DNA of 64,000 bases from positions 1 to 64,000 of the forward strand of contig JAKSYS010000132.1 of the NCBI GenBank assembly GCA_022925895.1, in the 5' to 3' direction. Below the pieces are notes generated by a model. That model was not told where the DNA came from and ran no database searches. It saw only the letters and a program-made list of their open reading frames with translations. The translations under genes were made by a program, and so were the position numbers. Source of the stretch: Fragilaria crotonensis (lineage: Eukaryota > Bacillariophyta > Fragilariophyceae > Fragilariales > Fragilariaceae). This document shows positions 1,085-32,172 of this stretch, one piece after another; the first letter of the stretch is position 1; each line of letters opens with the position of its first letter.

Positions 1085-2482
1085 TCATTCTCTCGTTTTC
1101 ACATTGGCGTCCAACATATGGGTAGGACCATCATCATACGGTTCACAGGGCGCCGAGGGTCTGACCGGGAATTGCAACACAAATCCAGAGGTGTTTTCCC
1201 AAGCAAATGGAGGGAAGATAGTGTCTTCGAAAGCCTTGAAACATGTAGCGTTTGGTTGTGTCGCGCGTCCCTTGCAAGGATTCACAATCACGTGCGTTTT
1301 GGAACCTGACCAATCGGTCACGCGAACGAGTCGCTTTCCCATTATCACATGAACTAGACCCGCCTCATATTCGTAAGATCCATAGTCTGCACCTGCCTTG
1401 AACAAGCCCTGGCGTGACCAATCCATGCTAGAATTCTGTAATGTTTCAAGTCGGTCCGAAACTTGCGCCAACACATGCGCGATACGGACGTCCATTTTAT
1501 TCAACAGCGCTGGGAACAGTTTCTCGTCGTACAAGTGCCGCAATCGTCCCAAATTGTCATGACGAAAGTAGTTGCGCGTTTCGTTGGTGTTGGCAAAGAC
1601 TGTAAATTGGCCTGCCATTACAGTTCCATAGCATACGTGTGACGTCCATGTATTATTTATACCCTGCTCGACCGCAGTCATTGTAATAACATCATATCCC
1701 TCGGCAATTGGCCGTCCCAAGAATTTCGTCAAGTTGCCCAAAATCAAGTCCATGTCGGCCCATGCCCAATGAGAATACTCTCGTATGTATTCCTCAAAGA
1801 CGCATCCAAGCATGGGTTTGAGTCTCGAAATCGAACTTCCAATCACTCGAAACTTCGTCTTATATAGAATGTCACCTATACGACTGTGATAGAAGTCTTG
1901 AAGGTTCCCCACAACGTGTACTCGGACGTTACTCAATGACGAGTCGGATGGATTGGGAATGAATGCTTCAAGGAGTGCTGAGGTTTCTTGATCTGGTACA
2001 AAGATCAAGAAATCGGCAATGGGGTCATTGGCCACAGCCGATGCCACCCAATACTGAAAGAATGGTGGTGGCAACTGGTCATCTGAACTCCACACGTGGA
2101 GCACTGCTATTCTTGTTGCAGCAAGAGGTTGATGGAATTGTTCGGCATGTTCTTCCGACAATGGGGGGACTGACAAGTATGGAAAAACGGTTTGATTGGT
2201 GCGAATTTGTGAGCGGAATAAATCGCATTGCTGTTCCAACCAGCCCATCTGATTGAGACGAGACTGATAACGAAACGTTAGAGATCCACCACCAGGGACA
2301 TCTCCTGTTCTCTTGACGTTGTTCTCCATTTGAAGAAAAGTCTCCTGTACAGTGCCTATTAAGCTGATGTTGCAGGCAACAACAAAAATGGCAAGGCAAG
2401 CCCATGGGAGGACCCGTGAATAAATTGTAGCCCGGATCATTGGTTGACTGATGCTGATGTTGATGCCTTCATTTCGTACCAT
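1085..2482 (-). CDS. Putative type II membrane glycosyltransferase (GT-A-like, DxD motif)
   Basis: A 465-aa protein if started at the ATG at 2482; an upstream GTG extends the frame by 20 codons but is an unlikely eukaryotic start, and a second ATG lies at 2440. A short basic N-terminus is followed by one hydrophobic segment (about residues 22-45), the layout of a Golgi type II membrane enzyme. The lumenal part contains SHWAWADMDLILGNL at about residues 237-251; the DMD is a DxD-type metal/nucleotide-sugar site preceded by aromatic residues, as in a group of uncharacterised glycosyltransferase-like families (DUF6625-type). Several NxS/T sequons fit a secretory protein. The sugar donor and acceptor cannot be read from sequence. 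There is no sign of an intron. The upstream neighbour is divergent, across 2.8 kb of repeat-rich DNA. Confidence 0.62.
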   Translation of the reverse strand: MVRNEGINISISQPMIRATIYSRVLPWACLAIFVVACNISLIGTVQETFLQMENNVKRTGDVPGGGSLTFRYQSRLNQMGWLEQQCDLFRSQIRTNQTVFPYLSVPPLSEEHAEQFHQPLAATRIAVLHVWSSDDQLPPPFFQYWVASAVANDPIADFLIFVPDQETSALLEAFIPNPSDSSLSNVRVHVVGNLQDFYHSRIGDILYKTKFRVIGSSISRLKPMLGCVFEEYIREYSHWAWADMDLILGNLTKFLGRPIAEGYDVITMTAVEQGINNTWTSHVCYGTVMAGQFTVFANTNETRNYFRHDNLGRLRHLYDEKLFPALLNKMDVRIAHVLAQVSDRLETLQNSSMDWSRQGLFKAGADYGSYEYEAGLVHVIMGKRLVRVTDWSGSKTHVIVNPCKGRATQPNATCFKAFEDTIFPPFAWENTSGFVLQFPVRPSAPCEPYDDGPTHMLDANVKTRE

Positions 2483-2960
2483 TTGTAAGCAAACGTCGGA
2501 GCAGGCCCTTGTTTGTACGACAGAGGATGCATGCACCCTCACTTATCTCAGCTTTTGTGATTGGAAGCAACAGCAAAACTCAATTCTATTCAAACAGCGA
2601 CTTCAAGGATGAGATAGAAAACTTGACCTTGTGCTGCATTCTGGTTGCATAATCTCGCTTGGGTAGACGAAATCTGTAACATCAGCAGCCTCCATGCAGT
2701 ACTGAGGAGAGAAACAAGAGCTACGAATCGTGTGTCGATATGCAAACATCGTGAGTTCCGGCGAAAGTACATAGTACCTGGTACTGGTAGTACAAGTACG
2801 AAGTACATACTGTATGCTACCTTTTTCCAGCTTTTAATTGTACTCCGAGTACCTACTACCAGTAGCACAGTGCCTATCGTGCCATCACATGTTCCCGACA
2901 TGTCGCTAGAGAGATTCGCCATGTCGGTCTGGGGGGGGGCCTCACACAGGTATGCATACT

Positions 2961-3001
2961 GTACCAGGTACCAGGTACCAGGTACCAGGTACCAGGTACT
3001 G
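2961..3001. repeat. Tandem array, 7-bp unit CCAGGTA
   Basis: About five perfect copies of CCAGGTA in a row (gtaccaggtaccaggtac and onward). Each unit contains TAC, so the array is also a run of GTAC-like words. Confidence 0.95.
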
Positions 3002-3109
3002 TACTAACTAGTGTACCTGGTAGCATATGATGGACATCCATGTCACCACGTCGCAAAACAAGTTCTTCACTACAGTCACCACCGCATGTGTTACCATAGC
3101 AGAGAGCAG

Positions 3110-3144
3110 AGAGTGCAGAGTGCAGAGTGCAGAGTGCAGAGTGC
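3110..3144. repeat. Tandem array, 7-bp unit AGAGTGC
   Basis: About five copies of AGAGTGC, preceded by a short GCAGAGA-like stretch. The unit is unrelated to the CCAGGTA array 110 bp upstream except for its length. Confidence 0.95.
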
Positions 3145-3300
3145 ACGGTACTCCGGTAGTACAGTATTTGCACAAGGTCAGTACTCCGAGGACTTGTACC
3201 AGGTACATGTATGTCATACAAGCTCAGAATACTGCAGTACGAAATGGGGCCGATGGTTACCGGTGACGTGTCGGTCGTTGACGTTGGGTTGAGTTTTCGA

Positions 3301-3321
3301 GTCGTGTGTCGTGTGTCGTGT
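3301..3321. repeat. Tandem array, 7-bp unit GTCGTGT
   Basis: Three perfect copies of GTCGTGT followed by a decayed GTGCTCT-like continuation. Confidence 0.9.
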
Positions 3322-5254
3322 GTGCTCTGTGCGAGAGACTCTGAACTCTGAACACAGCACTGCGGTACTTGTACTGTGATAGTAGTCCGTTTTTATTCCA
3401 CTCTCTATACCACCCAGTGAAGCCTGCGCTACAAGTGTTCATTTATAGTCGTACTGTACCTGGACTACCGTGCTACGGCTACGAAAACATCTACAGGATC
3501 TGTAGTACATTGAAATCTACTTTAGAGTAGGGCCCCATTTTATGAAGGGCCGACAAGGGACCAAAACGTTCGTTTTGCTTACTTTGTTGCTAGGCTGCTG
3601 ATTGCTCACCATGAACACAACACCATCCAACTAAGTAGCTCTCTATGACATTACCTATACGTTTTACATGCATGCTTGCTCCAAAACTGCTGCAGCCTGT
3701 GTGCATTGTAGCTTTCTGCAACAGTGATTTCTGAGCCTGCATGAGATGAAGCCACATTTTATTGACGGCATCCGAATGACAACCCCCACCAGTCTGCCCG
3801 CCTAATATCCCTATGGACTAGTCCTGACACCATGTCCAAAGACAACAAACATACCATGATTCCCGGACAAAGGTACATCAGATACCTAATCACCACGACA
3901 TGCCTTTGCCGTCAGCAGCCTCAACGAGCTACTGCACCAACCAGCCCACCAACGGCTGTCACCCATATGGGTCACATGACAGCTGCTGCTGATTGATATC
4001 CATTATTGACTGTCTGAAGTTTGATCCGTGGGTTGGTCCTTGCCACCCACCTGCTTCTCTACTAGTAGGAGCTGGATTGGTTTACTTGTTGGTGACGCCC
4101 ATCGCACACACTTCTCCTGATGACGCACCATCTAAAACCATGACGAAAACAACAATCCCCGCGGTTGATAAGGAGACAGTAAAGCCCACAGTTTTCCCGA
4201 CAAATCCACCGGCATGTGCGTGTTGTCCTTGGGAATGGTGTCGGGACTGCATACTACCCGGTTGGGCTGCTGGTTTGCTTGTTGGCCGGTTGTTGCAGCC
4301 AGCACCAAATTCAATCCCCATTGACCAGCATGCAACTATGATTGCAAACTGGTAAGGCCATGACTTCTCCAACACAAGCCCATCAACAGTGCCAGCCATT
4401 ATGCCGACAGGCCAACCATCGCGTCAACTCACCACTGCGCCAACTTTGATCAGGCACCAACATGTCATTGCCAACTCTCTCACCAGCAAACTAGTAAGCA
4501 ACATCCCAAAATTTCTCCCACCAGATTGTCGGTGCACTCCACAAGATCAGCCATGCTTCATGATGATGATGCAGGAGTCATACCTCGTGAATTTCATCGT
4601 CCTTGTTAATCGGACTACTAAAAAAAAGCGCGTGGGATGCTGACAACCATTCCGAGTGGAATAGTGGAATTTCCGTAGGACACTCTACGAAGGAAAAAAT
4701 CCACTCACAGCGCCACTTGTGCAACAAAAATTACCTAATTTATACCCACCCCAAAATTACAGTACAATAAATTTGCACGGGGACCCCCGTAACCCCCCGT
4801 ACATAATACCACGTCGGTGGAATTTCCGTACTTTTGTACTCGTACTTGAGCAACGGCAATTGTGTCGTTGAAGCAGGAGTGGATCTAGTATGTCGAACGA
4901 CCAGTACAAGTGTACTGTACCAGCACTATACTGGAGTACCGGCACAACCGTACCGATGTTTTTATATGCCTGTACTCCGATTTCAGTCCTGTAGGAAATC
5001 ATGCTATCAGAGTATTGTACTACTGGTACAGTAGCAGTAGTGCGACGAGTTTGTGCAAGACTGCAAGACAACCCATGATCGAAGCGTTGAGAGCTCTTTG
5101 TCCGCATGCTTACATGCTTACACCGGACCAACAAGCGCCTATCACCATTCACCATTTGTGAGCTCATCACTCCGAGTATATACCAACTACAGCACACATC
5201 AAGTATTAGCATTCGCTATTCAAACCTGCCTAACCATCAACATACAATTCGCAA

Positions 5255-17636: not shown

Positions 17637-18236
17637 TCATACTTCATAAAAATCATTCTCATCCACTTCTTCATTCCTTGCCGTCGCTTCGTTCAACACT
17701 GAATTGACAAACTTGCAATCAAAGTGAAGGGCACACCGGTGCCCTCTCATATCCTTCGTGAGCCTCTCAATCTCAGAGTAGAGGAGTTCCTGCTGGTTCG
17801 TCCATTCTATCTCATCACGGTCATTCTTGTCAGAATTCTGATTCGCAGCAGCCAGCAGTCGTTCTTTCTGTTGCTCCAAATGATGGTACGTGCAAATGTA
17901 TGCCCTCGCTCTCGCCGCAAATTTTTCCATTCTCACCTTCGTTAACACACTATCAGGGCAGGTGCAGTCTCGTACGAGCTTCTTGAAACTCTCTCGACCT
18001 CGCTTCTGTGATAAAGGAAGACGTCGATAGAAGGCTTTGGAATGTGCCCAACTATATTCAATGCCTTCCCCAGCAAGCTCTGCATGAAACTTCGGTGTGA
18101 GTTTCACTGTCACGCCAAGCTGAGTCCCTAAGAACTCAAGCGCGGTTTCTTCATCCTGAAGTCCTTGCAATTGGCAAGGATGTGGCGAAGTGACGATTGT
18201 AAGTTGACCTCGCCTGTAATTGGATTTTTCTTCCAT
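17637..18236 (-). CDS. DDE transposase, C-terminal part (catalytic Glu)
   Basis: A 199-aa frame whose ATG at 18236 overlaps the stop of the upstream transposase ORF, in the -1 frame relative to it. It contains LTPKFHAELAGEGIEYSWAH, equivalent to the YPKFHCELNPIE segment of related transposases, where the Glu completes the DDE triad. A helical, basic tail follows (RRLPLSQKRGRESFKKLV, EKFAARARAYICTYHHLE), then an acidic C-terminus. The two ORFs together therefore hold exactly one complete catalytic domain. A single-base deletion, an unrecognised intron or programmed frameshifting would all produce this arrangement. Confidence 0.75.
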   Translation of the reverse strand: MEEKSNYRRGQLTIVTSPHPCQLQGLQDEETALEFLGTQLGVTVKLTPKFHAELAGEGIEYSWAHSKAFYRRLPLSQKRGRESFKKLVRDCTCPDSVLTKVRMEKFAARARAYICTYHHLEQQKERLLAAANQNSDKNDRDEIEWTNQQELLYSEIERLTKDMRGHRCALHFDCKFVNSVLNEATARNEEVDENDFYEV

Positions 18237-20821
18237 CAAGAGTATACTTGTCTAATGATGATTCGTCGATGAACCCTCTCCCACAGAACTTGCATCAGGC
18301 CCTTTGGCTGCCCCTGCCACCCTGGTATAACAAGCTCTCTGTCTTCAAAGAGGTCGACACCATTGTTATTTGCAAACTCGATCAGCTCTTTCTTTGTATG
18401 ATTCCGTTGCTGTTGAAGGACAACACCCGCCGCCGCAAGTGCATCAACGAGCATTTTCTTCGAGCGTTCAATGCGTTTCCTCTTCCCTGTTGGTCTATTG
18501 TGCCTCTGTCGTTCCTTCTCCTCCGGGGATAAATACCATGGCCCACTGTCTTCGTCCTTGAAGATCAATGATTGGGTATCGCCAACTTTCAAAACAGGTG
18601 AGTGGGGACCGAGATATCCTGTGTCTGACATTATTGTCGTATCTCTCATCACCGGTTGTGCTCCTCCATAGTTCTTGGACATGTGAAGAGCATTCAGTGC
18701 CCCGTTTCGCTTCCGTGCATGTCCCTGACTGTGATCGAAAAGAAAGATGAACTCGAACTCTGGATACAATACCATAAGACAATCAACGACATCTTCAAAT
18801 TGAAGAGCCATATGATAGCTGTTCCAGAAACCCTCATTATTTGCACCGATGTATAAATACTTAACAAATGGTGATTCGGTGAGGAGTGGTTTGCGATGAG
18901 TCTTGAGGATCTCCTCGGCGGCTTGAGTATCTGTGTAAGTCTTTCCGATTCGTCTCTCGTTGTTTATTCTTGTCAACTCATCTGCCGTCAATCTCCTCCC
19001 AAATCCAAAGTCCCTTGAGACGAACGCCGAGAGCATGTACCCATCCCCTTCTGACTTGGGAAGGAGCGGTCGTTGACCTTTTGGTCCGATCCATGTCTTC
19101 GACCCCAGAAGATACTGAGCAAAAACACTTTCATCCTGACCTATCAGCATGATGGGTTTTGCCTTCGATGACACTCGGATGCTCATTGTTGGCTCTATGA
19201 TTGGGACTGTGCTTCTTCCTGGTGCTGTTTCTTTGAAACGGAAGCGATTCCAGTAGTCAACATGGAACTCGATGTAATCTTTGCCAGCAATGATGTTGTG
19301 ATAGTGGTACCCGAATCCTACGTCGAGATCTTTGATTGCTGCAGCATCCTCCTTTGATATTTGCACCCATCGGTGACAGTAAGGTTCGTACTCTGTGAGA
19401 TATTCTCTGCAAAATGTCTTGCGATTTGCAACAACATCCTCACGTTCGTGCCCATCAACATAGAAGCTCTTCTTTTTCAGGTCGTAGTGGAATCCAAGTA
19501 AGCGCATCCACCTCCATGCGGTTGTTAAACTAAATGATTCAAGTCGATGAGCTTTGAGAAACAAACGGATCCGATCATCGTGATCAGAGAGCTCTTCATT
19601 GGTCGAATCATTTGTGGTGCTGGTTCTCGTTGTTCTTGTCGGCGATGATGAAATTGAAGCTGCAACATCGCTTTTCCATAGAGTAATAAGTCGCGGAATG
19701 ACTTTCGATAGGATGAAATCGTGTACACCTTCTATCGTTAGCTTCGCTAAATTCTTCAGTGCGAATGATACAATCTGATCCTTCGCATCCGGAAAGACCT
19801 CCAAAAGTCTTGGCAAAGGTCGCTTCCCACATTGTATGTAGGGATTTGGGTGAGGAAACCCTTCAAACTGTCGATACGTCATGTTCCATACTGCTACAGT
19901 CTTATAGGACCTAGCCTGGAGCATCCCGAGCTCATTGAGCTCATTACAAGCCTCTTGACAACACTTGTACCATGTCCACTGGTTCATTCGTATAATTGCT
20001 AACTGATAAGCTCTACATAAAAATGTTGCTCTTTGGCGGATTTCGAATATCTCTGCCTTAGTGCAGAAGTTGTCGGCATCCCTTCCAATAACGACATTTC
20101 GCCAGCAGTCTTCACCCTTGTGCACCGATTGTAAGACCCGGATACGACGCTCGACTGCCTCAAGAGGACTTTCATTGCATACTGTGACGCCAGAAACACT
20201 TCCCCCACTTCGTCTCCGAGGGCGAAACAATGCGTGCGCTTCTGGGCTGGCCCAATAGGTTGTTGTCGTAATACTTCTGGTGCTGCTGTCAAGAGGAGCA
20301 TCAGTTCTCTGACGCTTTGACGGTGACGGCGCTTGATCTTCAATACTTTGTCCAGCAGGATCACCGTTGGTGTTTTCTGCCGTCGTCGTGTCTTGTTCCA
20401 CACTTGCGCGAGCAGGAGCTGGTCTCGCTCTTGTAGATGGAATGACAAGCACATTCGCAGCGTATTCGAGCACTTTTTCCTTCCAACCTCGGTCCAGTGG
20501 ACTTGGATAAGTCACCTGCTTCTTCACCTGAGTCAAGTAGTAGTAGTGGCGATGCTGGAAGGTGACTCGGAACATTCCGCTCTCGTTTGATCCGTCAAAC
20601 CTTGACATGACAGATCCGAAGGAACTTGACCTTGAAAATGCCGCATTAAATTGGCGGACAGTAAAGGTTAGGGAAGCATCAATGTGACCTAATTTTTGCA
20701 GTGCCTCAACCCAAGTTTCAGCTGGAAGCCAACAATTCATTAATCGCGGCGCGTAGATATTGTCGGAACGAATCAATACGACAGCACTGATTACAATGCT
20801 GTAAATTCTTTTGTCAGCCAT
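18236..20821 (-). CDS. DDE transposase, N-terminal and central part (first two catalytic Asp)
   Basis: An 861-aa frame from ATG 20821. The N-terminal 300 residues are unrecognised, with a Thr/Arg/Pro-rich linker. From about residue 400 it follows a family of Tc1/IS630-like transposases: TTAWRWMRLLGFHYDLKKKS, YVDGHEREDVVANR, then MLIGQDESVFAQYL with the first catalytic Asp, and EFEFIFLFDHSQGHARKRN with the second. The third acidic residue is in the next ORF. The frame ends TGA, which overlaps the downstream ATG as TGATG. The protein would cut and reinsert the surrounding element. Whether the two ORFs make one protein by frameshift, splicing or not at all cannot be decided here. Confidence 0.8.
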   Translation of the reverse strand: MADKRIYSIVISAVVLIRSDNIYAPRLMNCWLPAETWVEALQKLGHIDASLTFTVRQFNAAFSRSSSFGSVMSRFDGSNESGMFRVTFQHRHYYYLTQVKKQVTYPSPLDRGWKEKVLEYAANVLVIPSTRARPAPARASVEQDTTTAENTNGDPAGQSIEDQAPSPSKRQRTDAPLDSSTRSITTTTYWASPEAHALFRPRRRSGGSVSGVTVCNESPLEAVERRIRVLQSVHKGEDCWRNVVIGRDADNFCTKAEIFEIRQRATFLCRAYQLAIIRMNQWTWYKCCQEACNELNELGMLQARSYKTVAVWNMTYRQFEGFPHPNPYIQCGKRPLPRLLEVFPDAKDQIVSFALKNLAKLTIEGVHDFILSKVIPRLITLWKSDVAASISSSPTRTTRTSTTNDSTNEELSDHDDRIRLFLKAHRLESFSLTTAWRWMRLLGFHYDLKKKSFYVDGHEREDVVANRKTFCREYLTEYEPYCHRWVQISKEDAAAIKDLDVGFGYHYHNIIAGKDYIEFHVDYWNRFRFKETAPGRSTVPIIEPTMSIRVSSKAKPIMLIGQDESVFAQYLLGSKTWIGPKGQRPLLPKSEGDGYMLSAFVSRDFGFGRRLTADELTRINNERRIGKTYTDTQAAEEILKTHRKPLLTESPFVKYLYIGANNEGFWNSYHMALQFEDVVDCLMVLYPEFEFIFLFDHSQGHARKRNGALNALHMSKNYGGAQPVMRDTTIMSDTGYLGPHSPVLKVGDTQSLIFKDEDSGPWYLSPEEKERQRHNRPTGKRKRIERSKKMLVDALAAAGVVLQQQRNHTKKELIEFANNNGVDLFEDRELVIPGWQGQPKGLMQVLWERVHRRIIIRQVYS

Positions 20822-25956: not shown

Positions 25957-28032
25957 TCAGTGGGCTGCGACGATGCCGTTCGCTTTCTTCACAAACTGCA
26001 ACGGATGTTGAAACTCTTCGACCATCAATTTGCCGAAGTAATTTTGTTCCGTATCGGCGCCATCATGAAACGTATCGATGTCCTCGATAATGACTCGCAG
26101 TCGTTGAGGTTCGTTGCTTGTTGCAGGTACTCGGATATCCAGTACACCTTCCTGTGCAGACATTTGAAGGGAAGTGTCGCCAACAATTGTCATGCGAGTT
26201 ATACCTTTTTGTAGTTGGTAAACATTTGTTTGCAAGGCTTTGAATTGCACGACAAGCGGTGTCGATATCCGATAGATATCGGTATTCTTGCCGTCCAATG
26301 TGATATCAATAACTCCGTCATGAAACCAAACGGTACGCTGCCAAGGACCAACGGTTGTAGCAGTTGGAACCGTCGCGGATGCATTGCATTGTGACGAAGG
26401 ATCTGCGATACCCCCCGAAGTGGCAAGTCGTGTGCCCGCGACACTCTCCACAAACGGATAGACGATGGCTCCTTTCCCATCGAGGCAAACCTTCCTGGCC
26501 AATGCTAGATCCGTCATTTCTTGCCTTTCGCTGTCCCAGCCCCAACCGCGCGTCTTGGCATACACAAACTTACATCCTCTACACACCGAGTGAGTATGCG
26601 TCATATCGTATCTCCGATGGAACTTCTCGGACAAGGGTTTTCCCCGCCACTCGTGATATGATTCGTAAAGAGTTTTGTTGGCAATCACCTGTTGAAGGTA
26701 ATCTCCGAGCGCCTGAGTGGACGTAAAGTCGTGCCACGAAATAATTGAATGCTCTGGGACATGATCTTGAACATTCGGTGCGCCCATGTAGACAGGTAAT
26801 GTGCCACTAGACAAAGCCCCCCACAATTTTTCGGTGATGTAGTCTTCTTCATTCGAGTTCTCAAACGAAAAATGCAAGAGGTACTTGTTCATCATGCTTT
26901 CTTTGTTTGTTTGATCGCTCCCTTCGGGTAGACTAGCTCCGTTATTAAGGCAGCCTCCCAACGAATCGACTCGGATCATCTTCGTCAACTCCGTCACCAC
27001 GCCTTCGCGGTTATTCCTTGATGCACAGTTGTTAGCAATGAAAGAAGCTCCCTTTATTGACGAGTTGTAGTCGACGGCAGGATTTTGAATAGAATACTCG
27101 GCCCACGAAAAGTACGGAAGAGGAACCTCGGACTTGAAGGATGTTGTTGCATAAAACAAATTCTTCCTCCATTGATCAGGACGTATTCTCAAATCGTCAT
27201 AATTCACCGACGACTCCATCGAATGTTGAAACTGAAAATCAGTTCCGCCAACATAGACCGTCTGTTGGGTTCCTGGCGTTCCATATTGCCGGCATGGAAC
27301 TGTACATTCGTAGCTCTCGGGAGAACGTCCAGCCTCGTCCGGCGACCCCATCAACAAATCAATCGGAGTAATCTTGATGACCTTGAGCGAAGGCTCCTCC
27401 TCAAAGATTCGGATCCCCTCGTGACACGCTTCCTTGACATCAAGAAAAGCTCTTGGCTTAATGACATGTCCACAATAGTATCGAGAGTGATGCCAGGAGT
27501 TGAATGCGCGAATCGTATGGCCTTTCTTGAGATCACACACATCCATTTGTAGCAAGCAAGGTGTATAATCGGCTCCGGCGAGAGACATTAGTTCCTTAGT
27601 GGATGAATCGCCGTATGACAATGCCACAAGCCTTTCATATACGGTAGGTATAGGTTGCTGTTGGTTTGAGCTGTCCTTCTCGTTGGTTCGCAGTGGAGAC
27701 AATGATTTGCTCGTCTGCGGTATTCGCTCCCTGTTATCATTCCGGGTTTTAGGTGTCGGTTTAGAGCTCGCGTCCTCGTTGACTCGCGGTGGTGACAATG
27801 ATTTGTTCAGACGTGATCTTCCCTTTCGGCTCTCCTTCAAGTTTTTGGCCATGGCGCCTTCATCATTTTCTGGAACCAGCCGCACGTGAGACGAGGTGAC
27901 GACGCCATAGGATATTCGTATGCACAGTCCACAAATCAATCCCGCTAGAACTATGAAACATGTTCGGACATTGACAGTCACTTTGCTTCGCTTCGACGGG
28001 CTGCGTAAGGCCCGAATAGGAGAATTCACCAT
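25957..28032 (-). CDS. GT10 alpha-fucosyltransferase-like type II membrane protein with two extra modules
   Basis: A 691-aa frame from ATG 28032. A basic N-terminus precedes one membrane anchor (about 23-45), then a stem with two related segments (KSLSPPRVNEDASS and KSLSPLRTNEKDSS). Module A (about 160-212) has a Cys-Asp pair, IRAFNSW, YYCGHVIK and ACHE. The catalytic GT10 region (about 285-500) contains LLHFSFENSNEEDYITEKLW and LPVYMGAPNV, the GDP-fucose-binding signature of alpha-1,3-fucosyltransferases, and ends in a CxxC-type Cys pair. Module B (about 512-690) begins VCLDGKGAIVYPFVE and contains WQRTVWFHDGVIDITLDG. The enzyme should add fucose to glycans in the Golgi lumen. Modules A and B are not part of ordinary GT10 enzymes and recur in the gene at 29446-30855. 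The DUF3110 gene is divergent from it. Confidence 0.88.
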   Translation of the reverse strand: MVNSPIRALRSPSKRSKVTVNVRTCFIVLAGLICGLCIRISYGVVTSSHVRLVPENDEGAMAKNLKESRKGRSRLNKSLSPPRVNEDASSKPTPKTRNDNRERIPQTSKSLSPLRTNEKDSSNQQQPIPTVYERLVALSYGDSSTKELMSLAGADYTPCLLQMDVCDLKKGHTIRAFNSWHHSRYYCGHVIKPRAFLDVKEACHEGIRIFEEEPSLKVIKITPIDLLMGSPDEAGRSPESYECTVPCRQYGTPGTQQTVYVGGTDFQFQHSMESSVNYDDLRIRPDQWRKNLFYATTSFKSEVPLPYFSWAEYSIQNPAVDYNSSIKGASFIANNCASRNNREGVVTELTKMIRVDSLGGCLNNGASLPEGSDQTNKESMMNKYLLHFSFENSNEEDYITEKLWGALSSGTLPVYMGAPNVQDHVPEHSIISWHDFTSTQALGDYLQQVIANKTLYESYHEWRGKPLSEKFHRRYDMTHTHSVCRGCKFVYAKTRGWGWDSERQEMTDLALARKVCLDGKGAIVYPFVESVAGTRLATSGGIADPSSQCNASATVPTATTVGPWQRTVWFHDGVIDITLDGKNTDIYRISTPLVVQFKALQTNVYQLQKGITRMTIVGDTSLQMSAQEGVLDIRVPATSNEPQRLRVIIEDIDTFHDGADTEQNYFGKLMVEEFQHPLQFVKKANGIVAAH

Positions 28033-28392
28033 TCACACCGAGATGTCTGGAACCAAAACAATCAGTCCATCTGGAGTAAAGCTTGTGACATTGAGTGCGG
28101 GGATGGAGGCGTCTTACAAACGACTTGGATGAGAAAAATCGTGTTCACGTTTGAAGATACCGCACCCCGTACTGTAGCTGGTACTACCGTAGTACTGTTG
28201 TTTAGTAAAAGATGCTACAGTACTGACAGCTGACAGTAAAAAGAACTGCTACACCGTGCGCGTTGGAGTAAAACGTACGACTACGGTAGTGCACTACTGT
28301 TATGAGTGATAGACGTGATACGTGATACAAGTACGGCATACGGCATACCGCTCCATTCTAATCGTCGACAACCACAAACAACGATAGTTTCA
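28033..28392. promoter_or_regulatory. Divergent promoter region between fucosyltransferase and DUF3110 genes
   Basis: 360 bp between two divergent ATGs must hold both promoters. It is rich in GTAC-type words (28175-28290) and has a short ACGGCAT repeat near 28334. No TATA box or known factor site is convincing. Confidence 0.45.
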
Positions 28393-29082
28393 ATGAAGTC
28401 CCTATCGTTCACGCTACTTCTTCTAGCATGCGATTCGCTATGGGTTGGGGGTTTATCATTTATGATTGCTCCCCATCAACAAAAGTACCTTCATCACCAA
28501 CATGTGCGGCACCAACTCCGCTTCAAAAGCCCATCAACGGGAGATCTTCGTGCATCGAAGCATGAATCCGATGAGACTATGGATCCATTTGATATGAGTC
28601 AACTTCAGAGTCGAATCGAACAGCAACAGAATCGATATCGTGATTTTATCTTGTCTGCGGACGAAATGGAACATCGACCCGAAAACGTGCATATCATCGT
28701 CTTCAATCCTGAAACGGACGAACAGGGCGTCCACACGATTGAGTTCCCGCAAGGATCGGGTCTCAATATCATTCTCGCCTTTGAATCTCATATTGACTGT
28801 GAGACCTTCGCAACCATGCTGAAACATGAGGGGAGCCGACACTTTCAAAATGCCGTGTCGGCGGAGGCACCTCTGGACGAACTGGAAGAATTCTGCGACT
28901 CGGCGAACATGCTAGTCAAGGTCGTGCCTCGCGGGAAGGACCTTCGTCCTCCATCCGATAATGTGGAAGAATTATCCTTTGATCCAACGTTGACAAACAA
29001 TCGTGGAAAATCACGCGCCGAGTTCGAGGAAGAGGATGATGACGGCGACGACGCGGCACAATTCATGGAGAGTTGGCAGTAA
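28393..29082 (+). CDS. Plastid-targeted DUF3110 protein
   Basis: A 229-aa protein from ATG 28393; an upstream frame extension from 28306 would bury the signal peptide, so I prefer the later start. The N-terminus MKSLSFTLLLLACDSLW is a signal peptide, followed by GGLSFMIAP, an ASAF-like site with Phe at +1 as in diatom plastid precursors. The central part (about 95-205) matches DUF3110, a domain of cyanobacteria and plastids: NVHIIVFNPETDEQGVHTIE, LAFESHIDCETFATMLK, and LEEFCDSAN followed by a Pro-Gly pair. The C-terminus is acidic. The function of DUF3110 is not known; location in the plastid is inferred from the motif. Confidence 0.85.
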   Translation: MKSLSFTLLLLACDSLWVGGLSFMIAPHQQKYLHHQHVRHQLRFKSPSTGDLRASKHESDETMDPFDMSQLQSRIEQQQNRYRDFILSADEMEHRPENVHIIVFNPETDEQGVHTIEFPQGSGLNIILAFESHIDCETFATMLKHEGSRHFQNAVSAEAPLDELEEFCDSANMLVKVVPRGKDLRPPSDNVEELSFDPTLTNNRGKSRAEFEEEDDDGDDAAQFMESWQ

Positions 29083-29445
29083 ATATTTGATGCCTCTTTT
29101 TTGATACAGCGCAGCCGTATTCTCGATGTGGACGTGTTATGAAGTCAGCAAGATCCCCTTTCAATCCGGATTGTGGGGCACAATCGAAAACCAATAAATC
29201 GTTGGAAAGATAGCATAATGGTCCACACAAGGCACTTGGCTTCCGCTTCCTACTCTCGATTGGGAAGGTACTTGGGCAGCGAAATCGCCATGAAAGATGA
29301 TATCGTCGAATTGCCAACCCGTCTAACTGCGAAGCCAAGTTTAGTAAGCAAGCGGGTTCTAAATAGCTGTTGCGAAGTCACTGTCCGGGATGCGTTTGCT
29401 GATTTTGTGAATGGAATCAGTTCTGAGTTAGGGAGGCACAAAGCT
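29083..29445. other. Intergenic gap between convergent genes
   Basis: About 360 bp holding two 3' ends. A plus-strand frame (29173-29502) runs through it into the next gene and has no domain; I do not call it. Confidence 0.5.
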
Positions 29446-30855
29446 CTACGTGCGTGTCTTCACTACTCGAAAGAATTGCACCGGAGACATGAACTCACTT
29501 AGCATCGTCTCAGTGTGATTCTGGTCCTCACGCTTGTGCTTCTTCCAGGATTCCTTTATCACCCGTATGCGCTTCGGCTCATGACTAATTTGAGATGTTT
29601 GCATTTGAAGCACTCCGGGGGATGGGTTGGATACCGAGATACGCGGGTCCACAATAACGACGACTTGAGATGCGTTGCCTTGGAACGCATACACATGATC
29701 ACGAAGCATTGTGGAGTGTACATGCATTCGAATTTCGATTTGGTACGTGTCAGGAGAACGACCTTCCAACGTGATATCCACCACACCATCGTGGTGCCAT
29801 ACGGTGCGCTGCCATGATCCCAAAGTCTTGACGAGAGGCACCTTGAATTTGTCTCGGCACGTTGACTTGCCTGCTGCGACTGTATAGTTCTGTCCTGATG
29901 GATTTTTCTCGATAATGGTCTCCACAAAGGGGTAGTCTACCTGTCGGTTATGGGGGTCCAAACACATTTTTGTGATTCCCGTGCCTAGTTGCTCATTCAC
30001 ATAAACACGAGTGTTTTCATGGCACGGCTTGACAATCTCGATCGAAGTCTGTGCCTTGATTAGCTCTCCACATAGGTAAAGGTCTTGTTCCCAAGGATTG
30101 AACGCTCGGATGATGTCATTGACAGTATCGCAATCAGAAACTCTGCACAGAGCATATCTATTAGCTGGATCTTGCTCTTCAACAAGAGCTATCATTTTTG
30201 CAACGTCTTGCGCGCTGTACATGGGCGTTAGCAGTTGCGTAAAGACCTTCTCCTTGCGATGGTCCAATCTTTTGGTCAGGATTTCCGACATCAAAGCTTT
30301 CGACTCGTGCATCTCCGGTGCTTTCGGTTCCAATGATTGAGCCTGACCGCCGATGTCAGTAACTTTAGGTGCCTCCACCAGAATACCGGTAGCTCCTTCA
30401 CTTTGAGCAGGATGTTGCTGGCGCGATGGAGGTTGGTGCTCAGGTATGGGTGGGTTCGCCGCAAAGAGTGCCTTGATGACTTTCGCCTTTCGATGCCCCC
30501 CACCTTTCTTCGCTCTTGTCACTTCCGCATTATTTCCTTGTTGATTCACATCACTCGGAGGTGCGATTGTGACAGGTACCAACATCTGTGCCATCTGTTG
30601 CGCCCTTTCTTGCATAGCCCGCGACACAACGAGCGGTTTCGGATGCTCTCGTTTGAATCCATGTAGTGGAAACACCCGTTGGTGAGGGTTAACGTTTTGC
30701 CCCTGTTGTTGACTGCTATACGCAGACATGGCCACAAGTTGGACGATGAACACACATGCGGCGGCACCCAGGGTAAGGAAGGCTCCCAGTCTGCATTTAG
30801 GCTTCGACCCACCCCTTTGGAAAAGCTTCAATCGATTATTGCCAATTGCTACCAT
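29446..30855 (-). CDS. Type II membrane protein with fucosyltransferase-associated modules A and B, no GT10 domain
   Basis: The frame is open further upstream, but the ATG at 30855 gives a normal type II start: a basic N-terminus then one anchor (about 24-46). It is 469 aa long. A Gln/Pro/Ala-rich stem follows. Module A (about 235-285) reads DCDTVNDIIRAFNPW, LYLCGELIK and KPCHENTRVY. Module B (about 296-465) begins MCLDPHNRQVDYPFVE and contains WQRTVWHHDGVVDITLEG. Both align in order with the GT10-like protein encoded 1.4 kb away, but here A runs directly into B with the roughly 300-residue catalytic domain absent. It is probably a lumenal Golgi or surface protein. A glycan-binding role is a guess; no catalytic motif is visible. 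Confidence 0.8.
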   Translation of the reverse strand: MVAIGNNRLKLFQRGGSKPKCRLGAFLTLGAAACVFIVQLVAMSAYSSQQQGQNVNPHQRVFPLHGFKREHPKPLVVSRAMQERAQQMAQMLVPVTIAPPSDVNQQGNNAEVTRAKKGGGHRKAKVIKALFAANPPIPEHQPPSRQQHPAQSEGATGILVEAPKVTDIGGQAQSLEPKAPEMHESKALMSEILTKRLDHRKEKVFTQLLTPMYSAQDVAKMIALVEEQDPANRYALCRVSDCDTVNDIIRAFNPWEQDLYLCGELIKAQTSIEIVKPCHENTRVYVNEQLGTGITKMCLDPHNRQVDYPFVETIIEKNPSGQNYTVAAGKSTCRDKFKVPLVKTLGSWQRTVWHHDGVVDITLEGRSPDTYQIEIRMHVHSTMLRDHVYAFQGNASQVVVIVDPRISVSNPSPGVLQMQTSQISHEPKRIRVIKESWKKHKREDQNHTETMLSEFMSPVQFFRVVKTRT

Positions 30856-31461
30856 GATGATTCTCGATGATTGCCAAGGATGGTTACAACCTGAATGCAA
30901 TCCCGAAAATGTACTTCGCCTCTGGACTTTGGAGTTTGTTTGCGTTGGTGGCAAAATATGTATCCGAAACACCGACATCCGTGTATGCATAGTGGAGTGG
31001 ACAACAAAGAAAACACAATTTTTAGTCACGCATGCATCTCTGTGCGACACTTCAAAAACGAAAACATTTATGCTTCGAAGCTTCGAAGTACGACATTCAA
31101 GCGTCATCATGACCGCGGAAGGATTCCACGTTCCATTGGCGAAAGGTACTGGAGTACTGTATGCTGCGAGGTTCGAGAAGTTCCCGTAACAGTGTATTCT
31201 GGTCTGCTGTTGCGGGAGCTGGGACAATTGAAGGATAGCAATGATCAACTCTAAGTATCAAGGTGCCAGTTGAAACCTTGAAAATAACCACCTAAGTTGG
31301 GTTCGTTGATGGCTTGAACATGCAGACAATATGCCACTGAAGGAGAGCCTTTAGTGTATCTATTGTACGGACCATGGCAGTTGGTACGACAGTTCTTGTT
31401 TTCCAAGTTTGTATGATGGGTATGAATACCTTGAGCAGGATGTCTCAACATATTAATACTC
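30856..31461. other. Intergenic gap between same-strand genes
   Basis: About 600 bp. Minus-strand frames here (31251-31547 and the upstream extension of the previous gene) lack recognisable features. It probably includes the promoter of the downstream gene and the 3' end of the upstream one. Confidence 0.45.
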
Positions 31462-32172
31462 TTACGACGTCTGTATCTGCACGAGCGCGCTGTTCGTCCC
31501 TGCTTGTTGCGACTCTTCTCGCTCATCAGGAACATAGTTTTGATCACTGGGATGCACTTGATTTATTATTTGCCCGTTACTGGTATCCAGCGGCGTCATA
31601 ACCTTATGGAAGTCTTCAATGAGGGGAATGACCGATCCTTCCTGAACTCGGAGAGTCTTGGAAGGGTAGTCGCTTTGACTCAGTACTTTATTAGCGATCG
31701 ATCCCGATCCCATTTGCTCTATTGTATCTTTTGATGTCGACTTTGTGATGCCAGGCTGCGACGTAGTGCTGTCTACGTGCTGTTCGTTAAGTTTTGTGGC
31801 ACCCACTTGGGGCTTCGGTTCACTTCTTAATTTGTGAAAAAGAGTCTTCAGCGTTTTTTCTTGCAAAGCTTGGGCATTCGAGACACCCTTAGTCGCGTGC
31901 CGGACTAATGCTTCAGTTGGACGCTGTACCACTTTTGTTGGGGAGTTGTGGTGGTCGATTGGGCGATGACAGAACAATCTCGACATTGCCATGAGCGCCA
32001 CGGTGCAAACCAATACAACCAAAACAACTTCTCGGAGAACTTGAAATCTGGATTTCCCTTCTCGAAATGGATTTGAGGGAGGTGTTAGGTAAGTTCGATA
32101 CCTCACGACGTGCGAAAAGGATCTGTGTCTGTTTGAACTGATGCTGGCAAGGAGATTGTCTTTGGCGAGCAT
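31462..32172 (-). CDS. Short type II membrane protein, third member of the cluster, unrecognised
   Basis: A 236-aa frame from ATG 32172. It has a long basic N-terminus (about 45 residues) and one strong anchor (VLREVVLVVLVCTVALMAMS). The stem is polar, including ALQEKTLKTLFHKLRSEPKP, and resembles in composition the stems of the two neighbouring membrane proteins. There is no globular domain: it ends where modules A and B would be expected. It could be a stem-only paralogue, a gene whose distal part was lost, or one whose next exon I cannot see. No intron with a clear continuation was found. Confidence 0.55.
   Translation of the reverse strand: MLAKDNLLASISSNRHRSFSHVVRYRTYLTPPSNPFREGKSRFQVLREVVLVVLVCTVALMAMSRLFCHRPIDHHNSPTKVVQRPTEALVRHATKGVSNAQALQEKTLKTLFHKLRSEPKPQVGATKLNEQHVDSTTSQPGITKSTSKDTIEQMGSGSIANKVLSQSDYPSKTLRVQEGSVIPLIEDFHKVMTPLDTSNGQIINQVHPSDQNYVPDEREESQQAGTNSALVQIQTS

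Follow-up and report, generated by a model that had tools for sequence, protein, structure and literature searches.

Modules flanking a diatom fucosyltransferase domain, and shared by a neighbour that lacks it, most likely derive from Golgi alpha-mannosidase II

We analysed two neighbouring genes in a 64,000-nt stretch (the window) of the diatom Fragilaria crotonensis (assembly GCA_022925895.1, contig JAKSYS010000132.1, positions 1 to 64,000). One encodes a 691-aa protein in which a fucosyltransferase domain of family GT10 lies between two modules, A and B, and the other a 469-aa protein in which module A runs directly into module B (the A-B protein). Together, A and B most likely derive from Golgi alpha-mannosidase II (ManII), an enzyme of glycoside hydrolase family 38 (GH38), and specifically from its non-catalytic beta region. 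The best explanation of the pair that we can offer is a ManII-derived shell into which GT10 was inserted, followed by multiplication of the gene, loss of the domain from one copy and a non-catalytic partner role for the product. Taken whole, we regard this account as evenly balanced between right and wrong; within it, we infer the Golgi location, the origin of module A, the direction of change and the partner role.

Shared modules with and without a GT10 domain

Both modules are common to the two window proteins and occur in the same order. BLASTP aligns module B with 35% identity (62/176, E = 2e-27) and module A with 27% identity (24/88, E = 8e-9), which confirms the similarity proposed from motifs in the first-pass annotation. 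A Pfam scan finds PF00852 in the 691-aa protein (residues 329-493; E = 8e-37; 127 bits against a curated cut-off of 23.9) but no GT10 match in the A-B protein, which is therefore not classed as GT10. With the core limits adopted here, A and B are 300 residues apart (214-513) in the 691-aa protein and seven residues apart (289-295) in its neighbour, bearing out the earlier description of a GT10 domain of about 300 residues present in one protein and absent from the other. The spacing of about 1.4 kb between the two same-strand genes was also correct: the gap between the open reading frames (ORFs) is 1413 bases and contains a DUF3110 gene on the opposite strand.

A full-length global alignment of the pair placed module A wrongly, as did three mixed alignments, and another did so in part; alignment A8 was used instead. 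In the genome searched (62.1 Mb in 881 contigs, one assembly) five proteins carry A and B, and across them module A has five invariant residues, three of which are cysteines.

The A-B frame spans 29446-31110 and would encode 554 aa from its first ATG; the 469-aa length, also used in the earlier annotation, counts from the ATG at 30855. A hydrophobicity scan finds a single strongly hydrophobic segment close to the start of each protein, which is the pattern of type II membrane proteins. Both are predicted to reside in the Golgi.

We consider it very improbable that the A-B gene has lost its function and survives as a remnant, or that it reflects an assembly deletion within a further A-GT10-B copy. 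It is a single copy known from one assembly, which would fit either idea, but it retains 469 open codons and the family cysteines and aligns at 35% identity without stops. By our computation, 0.5 unconstrained substitutions per site would have introduced about 29 stops. Given that the frame is open at only 35% identity to its partner (in module B), a mere relic of a gene is improbable here.

Relationship of modules A and B to alpha-mannosidase II

Two loci in the genome contain a GH38 C-terminal domain. One of them (on contig C345) encodes ManII followed by an MGAT2 domain (PF05060, E = 4e-28; 1453-3599 of stretch C345:23500-28500), and its ManII reading frame shifts near a YNPLSF motif. Bifunctional ManII/GnTII fusions are already on record for several diatoms (excerpts of PMC12507850).

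We compared a profile of module B with the C345 ManII using hhalign. The match covers 168 columns with a probability of 92% (E = 5.9e-7), and its score of 50.5 compares with at most 23.9 in 100 shuffles, 13.8 for the reversed sequence and at most 19.3 among 46 of the 48 window ORFs (the window pair being left out). Standard BLASTP also links ManII to module B of the 691-aa protein (E = 3e-5). By this profile match above its controls, module B appears to be a remote relative of the GH38 C-terminal region.

A profile of A and B together carries the ManII match on through the cysteine end of A, such that A-like and B-like parts adjoin in the C345 ManII, although for A this is only suggestive. When module A was compared with the 103 open frames of the ManII locus, the ManII frame containing YNPLSF scored highest (18.6, the next being 14.4). 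Against a peptide joined over the frame break, module A scored 26.8, compared with at most 18.3 in 300 shuffles, but the junction was chosen by eye and we therefore count this match as suggestive. Module A may be homologous to the part of ManII that precedes the GH38 C-terminal domain, the match being clear only with the joined peptide.

Several sequence results weigh against a ManII origin. With the open ManII frame running into B as target, module A scored only 12.6, while 200 shuffles reached 20.4. None of the five B modules has a Pfam Glyco_hydro_38C match, the scan yielding one chance match to another family (E = 0.21). Among PDB sequences, neither hmmsearch with B nor phmmer with A+B recovered a GH38 chain; the former returned a ribonuclease and a thermonuclease at chance level (E 0.49 and 0.65), which we rejected, and the latter returned nothing. 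Four of the five single B sequences match ManII poorly (best BLAST E 0.008 to 1.0), while module B of the window GT10 protein gave E = 0.002 in the same set. Another B alignment tested against a trimmed ManII piece matched over only 53 columns (E = 9e-4), and the B profile has no match to the other GH38 gene of the genome (score 17.1). Neither window protein has a GH38 catalytic domain listed by hmmscan to E = 1, and we do not class them as GH38 enzymes.

Further afield, two scans of viral contigs and one of prokaryotic genomes gave 2, 7 and 16 pattern matches, none of which was confirmed as a relative, and no relative of the ManII piece was found in plasmids.

We also examined predicted structures. 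An AlphaFold model containing module B of the 691-aa protein, built from a six-row alignment, has a mean predicted local distance difference test score (pLDDT) of 47.8; within module B, model residues 391-410 and 431-530 have values of 69-79. In the PDB, this model is matched best by GH38 alpha-mannosidases (Z up to 10.6, 7-15% identity). The A+B model of the 469-aa protein is somewhat better (mean pLDDT 64.2, predicted template modelling score 0.61) and is again best matched by GH38, with residues 538-938 of Drosophila Golgi mannosidase II (GMII) aligning across the model (Z 8.2-8.9; 190-204 residues; root-mean-square deviation 4.4-4.9). This bears on whether A and B form one fold, a question raised in the first-pass annotation: the GMII alignment would fit this, but the pLDDT of module A is only 30-71.

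GH38 is on top for both models, with other sandwich enzymes within 1-2 Z units, and here too there are points on the other side. GH92 enzymes, rhamnogalacturonan lyase and others follow GH38 at Z of about 9 for the 691-aa model, and a bacterial glucoamylase (Z 8.3, 139 residues) and a GH65 enzyme (Z 8.2, 147 residues) come close behind GMII for the A-B protein. The models are of modest quality in their means as well as in module A, and the top Foldseek match, bovine lysosomal alpha-mannosidase, has E = 1.7e-3, with none below 1e-3.

Alternatively, the ManII resemblance might be one of fold only, A and B being accessory regions of diatom GT10 proteins that use a common beta sandwich. Such an explanation would account for the failure of the Pfam and PDB sequence searches to find GH38, for the nearly equal fold matches to several unrelated families, for the missing match to the second GH38 gene and for the weak result with the other alignment and cut. 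It does not readily account for a 168-column profile match far above shuffles, for the BLASTP match between ManII and B or for the correct placement of the A-like stretch in ManII, and we think it quite unlikely.

The GT10 family in the genome

PF00852 has 12 matches in the genome, at nine loci. At four of these (the window contig C40, C22, C241 and C681) the 691-aa protein matches beyond GT10, revealing an A-GT10-B layout, while at the other five (C676, C97, C228, C596 and C496) the matches are confined to residues 326-464, inside GT10. Modules A and B are thus not a routine part of all GT10 proteins, a possibility raised earlier as one that would undo the interpretation. The window A-B protein is the sole GT10-free copy found.

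We inspected the donor motif Y-x-x-E-K in alignment at six of the nine loci (all but C97, C676 and C496). Equivalents of its conserved residues, Tyr246, Glu249 and Lys250, interact with GDP-fucose (part of PMC11468063). The motif is YITEK in the window protein and YVTEK in C22 and in the plant-type loci C228 and C596, but is replaced in C241 (HITPA) and C681 (FACGV), both of which still exceed the PF00852 cut-off (89.5 and 54.1 bits). Since they retain the motif, the window and C22 proteins look active. The five A/B proteins would then comprise two that look active, two that keep GT10 without the motif and one without the domain. Counts of GT10 genes can accordingly overstate the number of active fucosyltransferases, as two of the six inspected loci lack the donor motif.

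The C22 gene has a 77-base intron within GT10 and not at the GT10 borders. The C681 copy has a single in-frame TAG between module A and GT10 (1521-1523 of stretch C681:7000-11500), which may mark a pseudogene, an allele or an unrecognised intron. A GlcNAc-transferase gene (PF11397; 3986-5740 of C22:58500-64500) lies beside the A-GT10-B gene of C22, on the other strand, and the two possibly form a small glycan cluster.

The ManII likeness, the three additional A-GT10-B genes, the loss of the donor motif in two of them and the intervening DUF3110 gene were all absent from the first-pass annotation.

Insertion and subsequent loss of GT10

The earlier annotation left open whether a glycosyltransferase had been inserted into an A-B protein or lost after duplication. 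Both may be right at different depths. Because A and B adjoin in ManII, an outside reference, the arrangement of A next to B would be the older one and GT10 between them an insertion. The trees favour a subsequent loss of GT10 from the A-B protein without proving it, the tests being mixed.

The A+B tree of the five proteins has the form ((A-B, window GT10), C22, (C241, C681)), with 98% and 100% of 200 bootstraps, the former value being for the grouping of the window pair. All A+B topologies that split the window pair have p ≤ 0.04 in the approximately unbiased (AU) test. With module B alone, the tree that groups the A-B protein with the window GT10 protein ranks first (AU 0.985), and a topology with the A-B protein outside the window GT10 and C22 proteins has AU p = 0.03 (Shimodaira-Hasegawa, SH, 0.35). 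When C345 ManII is the outgroup for A+B (its part of A being the peptide that spans the frame break), placing the root on the A-B branch is worse by 9.5 log-units (AU p = 0.03).

Other trees and tests stand against a secondary loss or beside it. SH does not reject the two best A+B topologies that split the pair (0.30 and 0.32), nor the root on the A-B branch with C345 (p = 0.18). With B alone and the C345 root, a basal A-B protein is 5.0 and 5.6 log-units worse in two alignments but has AU values of 0.22 and 0.09. In the GT10 tree, a root on C22 has AU 0.85, on the internal branch 0.42 and on the window protein 0.27; the maximum-likelihood root on C22 has 65% support, with an outgroup of two plant-type sequences, one a fragment. 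The GT10 test likewise does not reject three topologies in which C681 and C241 are no longer paired (AU 0.09-0.13), and a FastTree tree from module A gives a different topology on about 55 comparable residues.

These mixed results bear on the alternative that the A-B protein preserves the ancestral state and was never interrupted, that GT10 entered a copy of it and that the window pair represents the states before and after. The adjoining of A and B in ManII, just as in the A-B protein, suits this idea, as do the B-only rootings, the GT10 root on the window protein and the SH result for A+B. Yet it requires a root on the A-B branch, which is the worse position with A+B and with B alone, and we regard it as unlikely. 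Insertion followed by loss is our preferred history.

Proposed history and role

Under the preferred explanation, A and B would lie next to each other in a single beta region, itself related to the non-catalytic C-terminal part of ManII. A complete GT10 domain would have been inserted between them in an ancestor of this diatom, yielding a type II membrane enzyme framed by a shell of mannosidase origin. The A-GT10-B gene would then have multiplied, with the window and C22 copies retaining the GDP-fucose motif and C241 and C681 a recognisable GT10 domain without it, and the 469-aa protein would have dropped the domain cleanly, such that A runs into B again. In the Golgi membrane, the A-B protein would most likely be a partner or scaffold without catalysis of its own, which would bind its GT10 paralogue, ManII/GnTII or the N-glycan acceptor and aid fucosylation but not perform it.

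The occurrence of the shell without an enzyme in the neighbouring gene points to a separate function for the shell itself. Since no catalytic domain was detected in the A-B protein and a membrane anchor is predicted, it most plausibly serves the GT10 paralogue or ManII/GnTII in the Golgi, whether as scaffold, chaperone-like partner or glycan binder. Inactive partners such as Cosmc assist active Golgi glycosyltransferases; we draw on them purely as a working analogy of a non-catalytic relative aiding an active paralogue and claim no homology.

The A-B protein might instead be a lectin, its sandwich binding the N-glycan acceptor that the GT10 paralogue also binds, and not a protein partner. The kinship to a region of an N-glycan enzyme and the predominance of carbohydrate-active enzymes among the listed fold matches are consistent with a lectin, but we identified no sugar-binding site here and a shared fold is uninformative about ligand, and we find this somewhat doubtful. 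More broadly, and tentatively, as something short of probable, diatoms may have reused the ManII beta region as a chassis that took in GT10 and then shed catalysis in stages, with the motif lost from two copies and the entire domain excised from one, leaving non-catalytic Golgi proteins that assemble the N-glycan machinery or steer it.

Relation to known systems

The GH38 C-terminal region (Glyco_hydro_38C, as in Drosophila GMII and the diatom ManII/GnTII) resembles A+B in predicted fold, in the order of parts and in the B profile match. Unlike GH38 enzymes, the window proteins lack the GH38 catalytic domain, and their B modules fall below Pfam detection; compared with the GH38 region, the A/B proteins also lack its long loops in alignment, and four copies carry GT10 between A and B. 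The 691-aa protein shares PF00852 and the Y-x-x-E-K motif with the GT10 alpha-1,3/4-fucosyltransferases of CAZy, including FucT1 of Phaeodactylum tricornutum, but differs in having its GT10 flanked by A and B, whereas the five other GT10 loci of this genome match within GT10 only.

Long diatom fucosyltransferases are already known. The excerpts of PMC6536626 and PMC9826595 give PtFucT2 and PtFucT3 (Phatr3_J46109 and J46110) as 798/770 and 707/718 aa, with one GT10 domain each and consecutive gene numbers, and place the domain in the C-terminal part (PMC6536626). The two resemble the 691-aa protein in length and in having a single GT10 domain, and may share the A-GT10-B architecture, but both keep GT10, unlike the A-B protein. 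The open-licence literature searched yielded no report of the A/B modules, of their relation to mannosidase or of a GT10-free copy.

The proposed history brings together a mannosidase fold, a fucosyltransferase and a protein that has neither of the two activities, three things that are usually treated separately. If true, it would name a set of diatom Golgi pseudoenzymes, might explain why long diatom fucosyltransferases are unlike those of plants, and would provide an example of an entire domain that entered a fold and was afterwards removed from the same position.

Coordinates and neighbouring genes

Table 1. Positions in the window of the two genes, their parts and the intervening gene.
Feature	Position	Strand	Basis or remark
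A-GT10-B gene, 691 aa	25957..28032	minus	intact ORF, stop included; modules by BLASTP and Pfam
Predicted membrane anchor of 691-aa protein, about residues 24-45	27898..27963	minus	strongest hydrophobic stretch
Module A of 691-aa protein, residues 157-213	27394..27564	minus	BLASTP and alignment
GT10-containing interval of 691-aa protein, residues 214-513	26494..27393	minus	PF00852 itself at 26554-27048
YITEK donor-binding motif of 691-aa protein, residues 398-402	26827..26841	minus	alignment
Module B of 691-aa protein, residues 514-691	25960..26493	minus	BLASTP, profile match to ManII, fold
A-B gene without GT10, 469 aa	29446..30855	minus	stop included; ORF open upstream to 31110
Predicted membrane anchor of 469-aa protein, about residues 23-43	30727..30789	minus	strongest hydrophobic stretch
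Module A of 469-aa protein, residues 234-288	29992..30156	minus	BLASTP and alignment
Module B of 469-aa protein, residues 296-469	29449..29970	minus	BLASTP, alignment, fold
DUF3110 gene between the pair, outside the system	28393..29082	plus	ORF and Pfam

The A-B gene is closely preceded on its own strand by an ORF of 236 aa (31462-32172) with no Pfam match and, by eye, a hydrophobic stretch in its first third. We considered it as a truncated third copy and rejected this, its best E values to the window pair being 0.33 and 0.086. An 861-aa minus-strand ORF at 18236-20821, without a Pfam match, is perhaps derived from a mobile element. Elsewhere, the genome has 19 silicon-transporter matches, 18 of them above the Pfam cut-off, which mark the host as a diatom where the first-pass annotation spoke of stramenopiles. 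Three such matches lie in one open frame of 1456 aa at C97:29749-33762.

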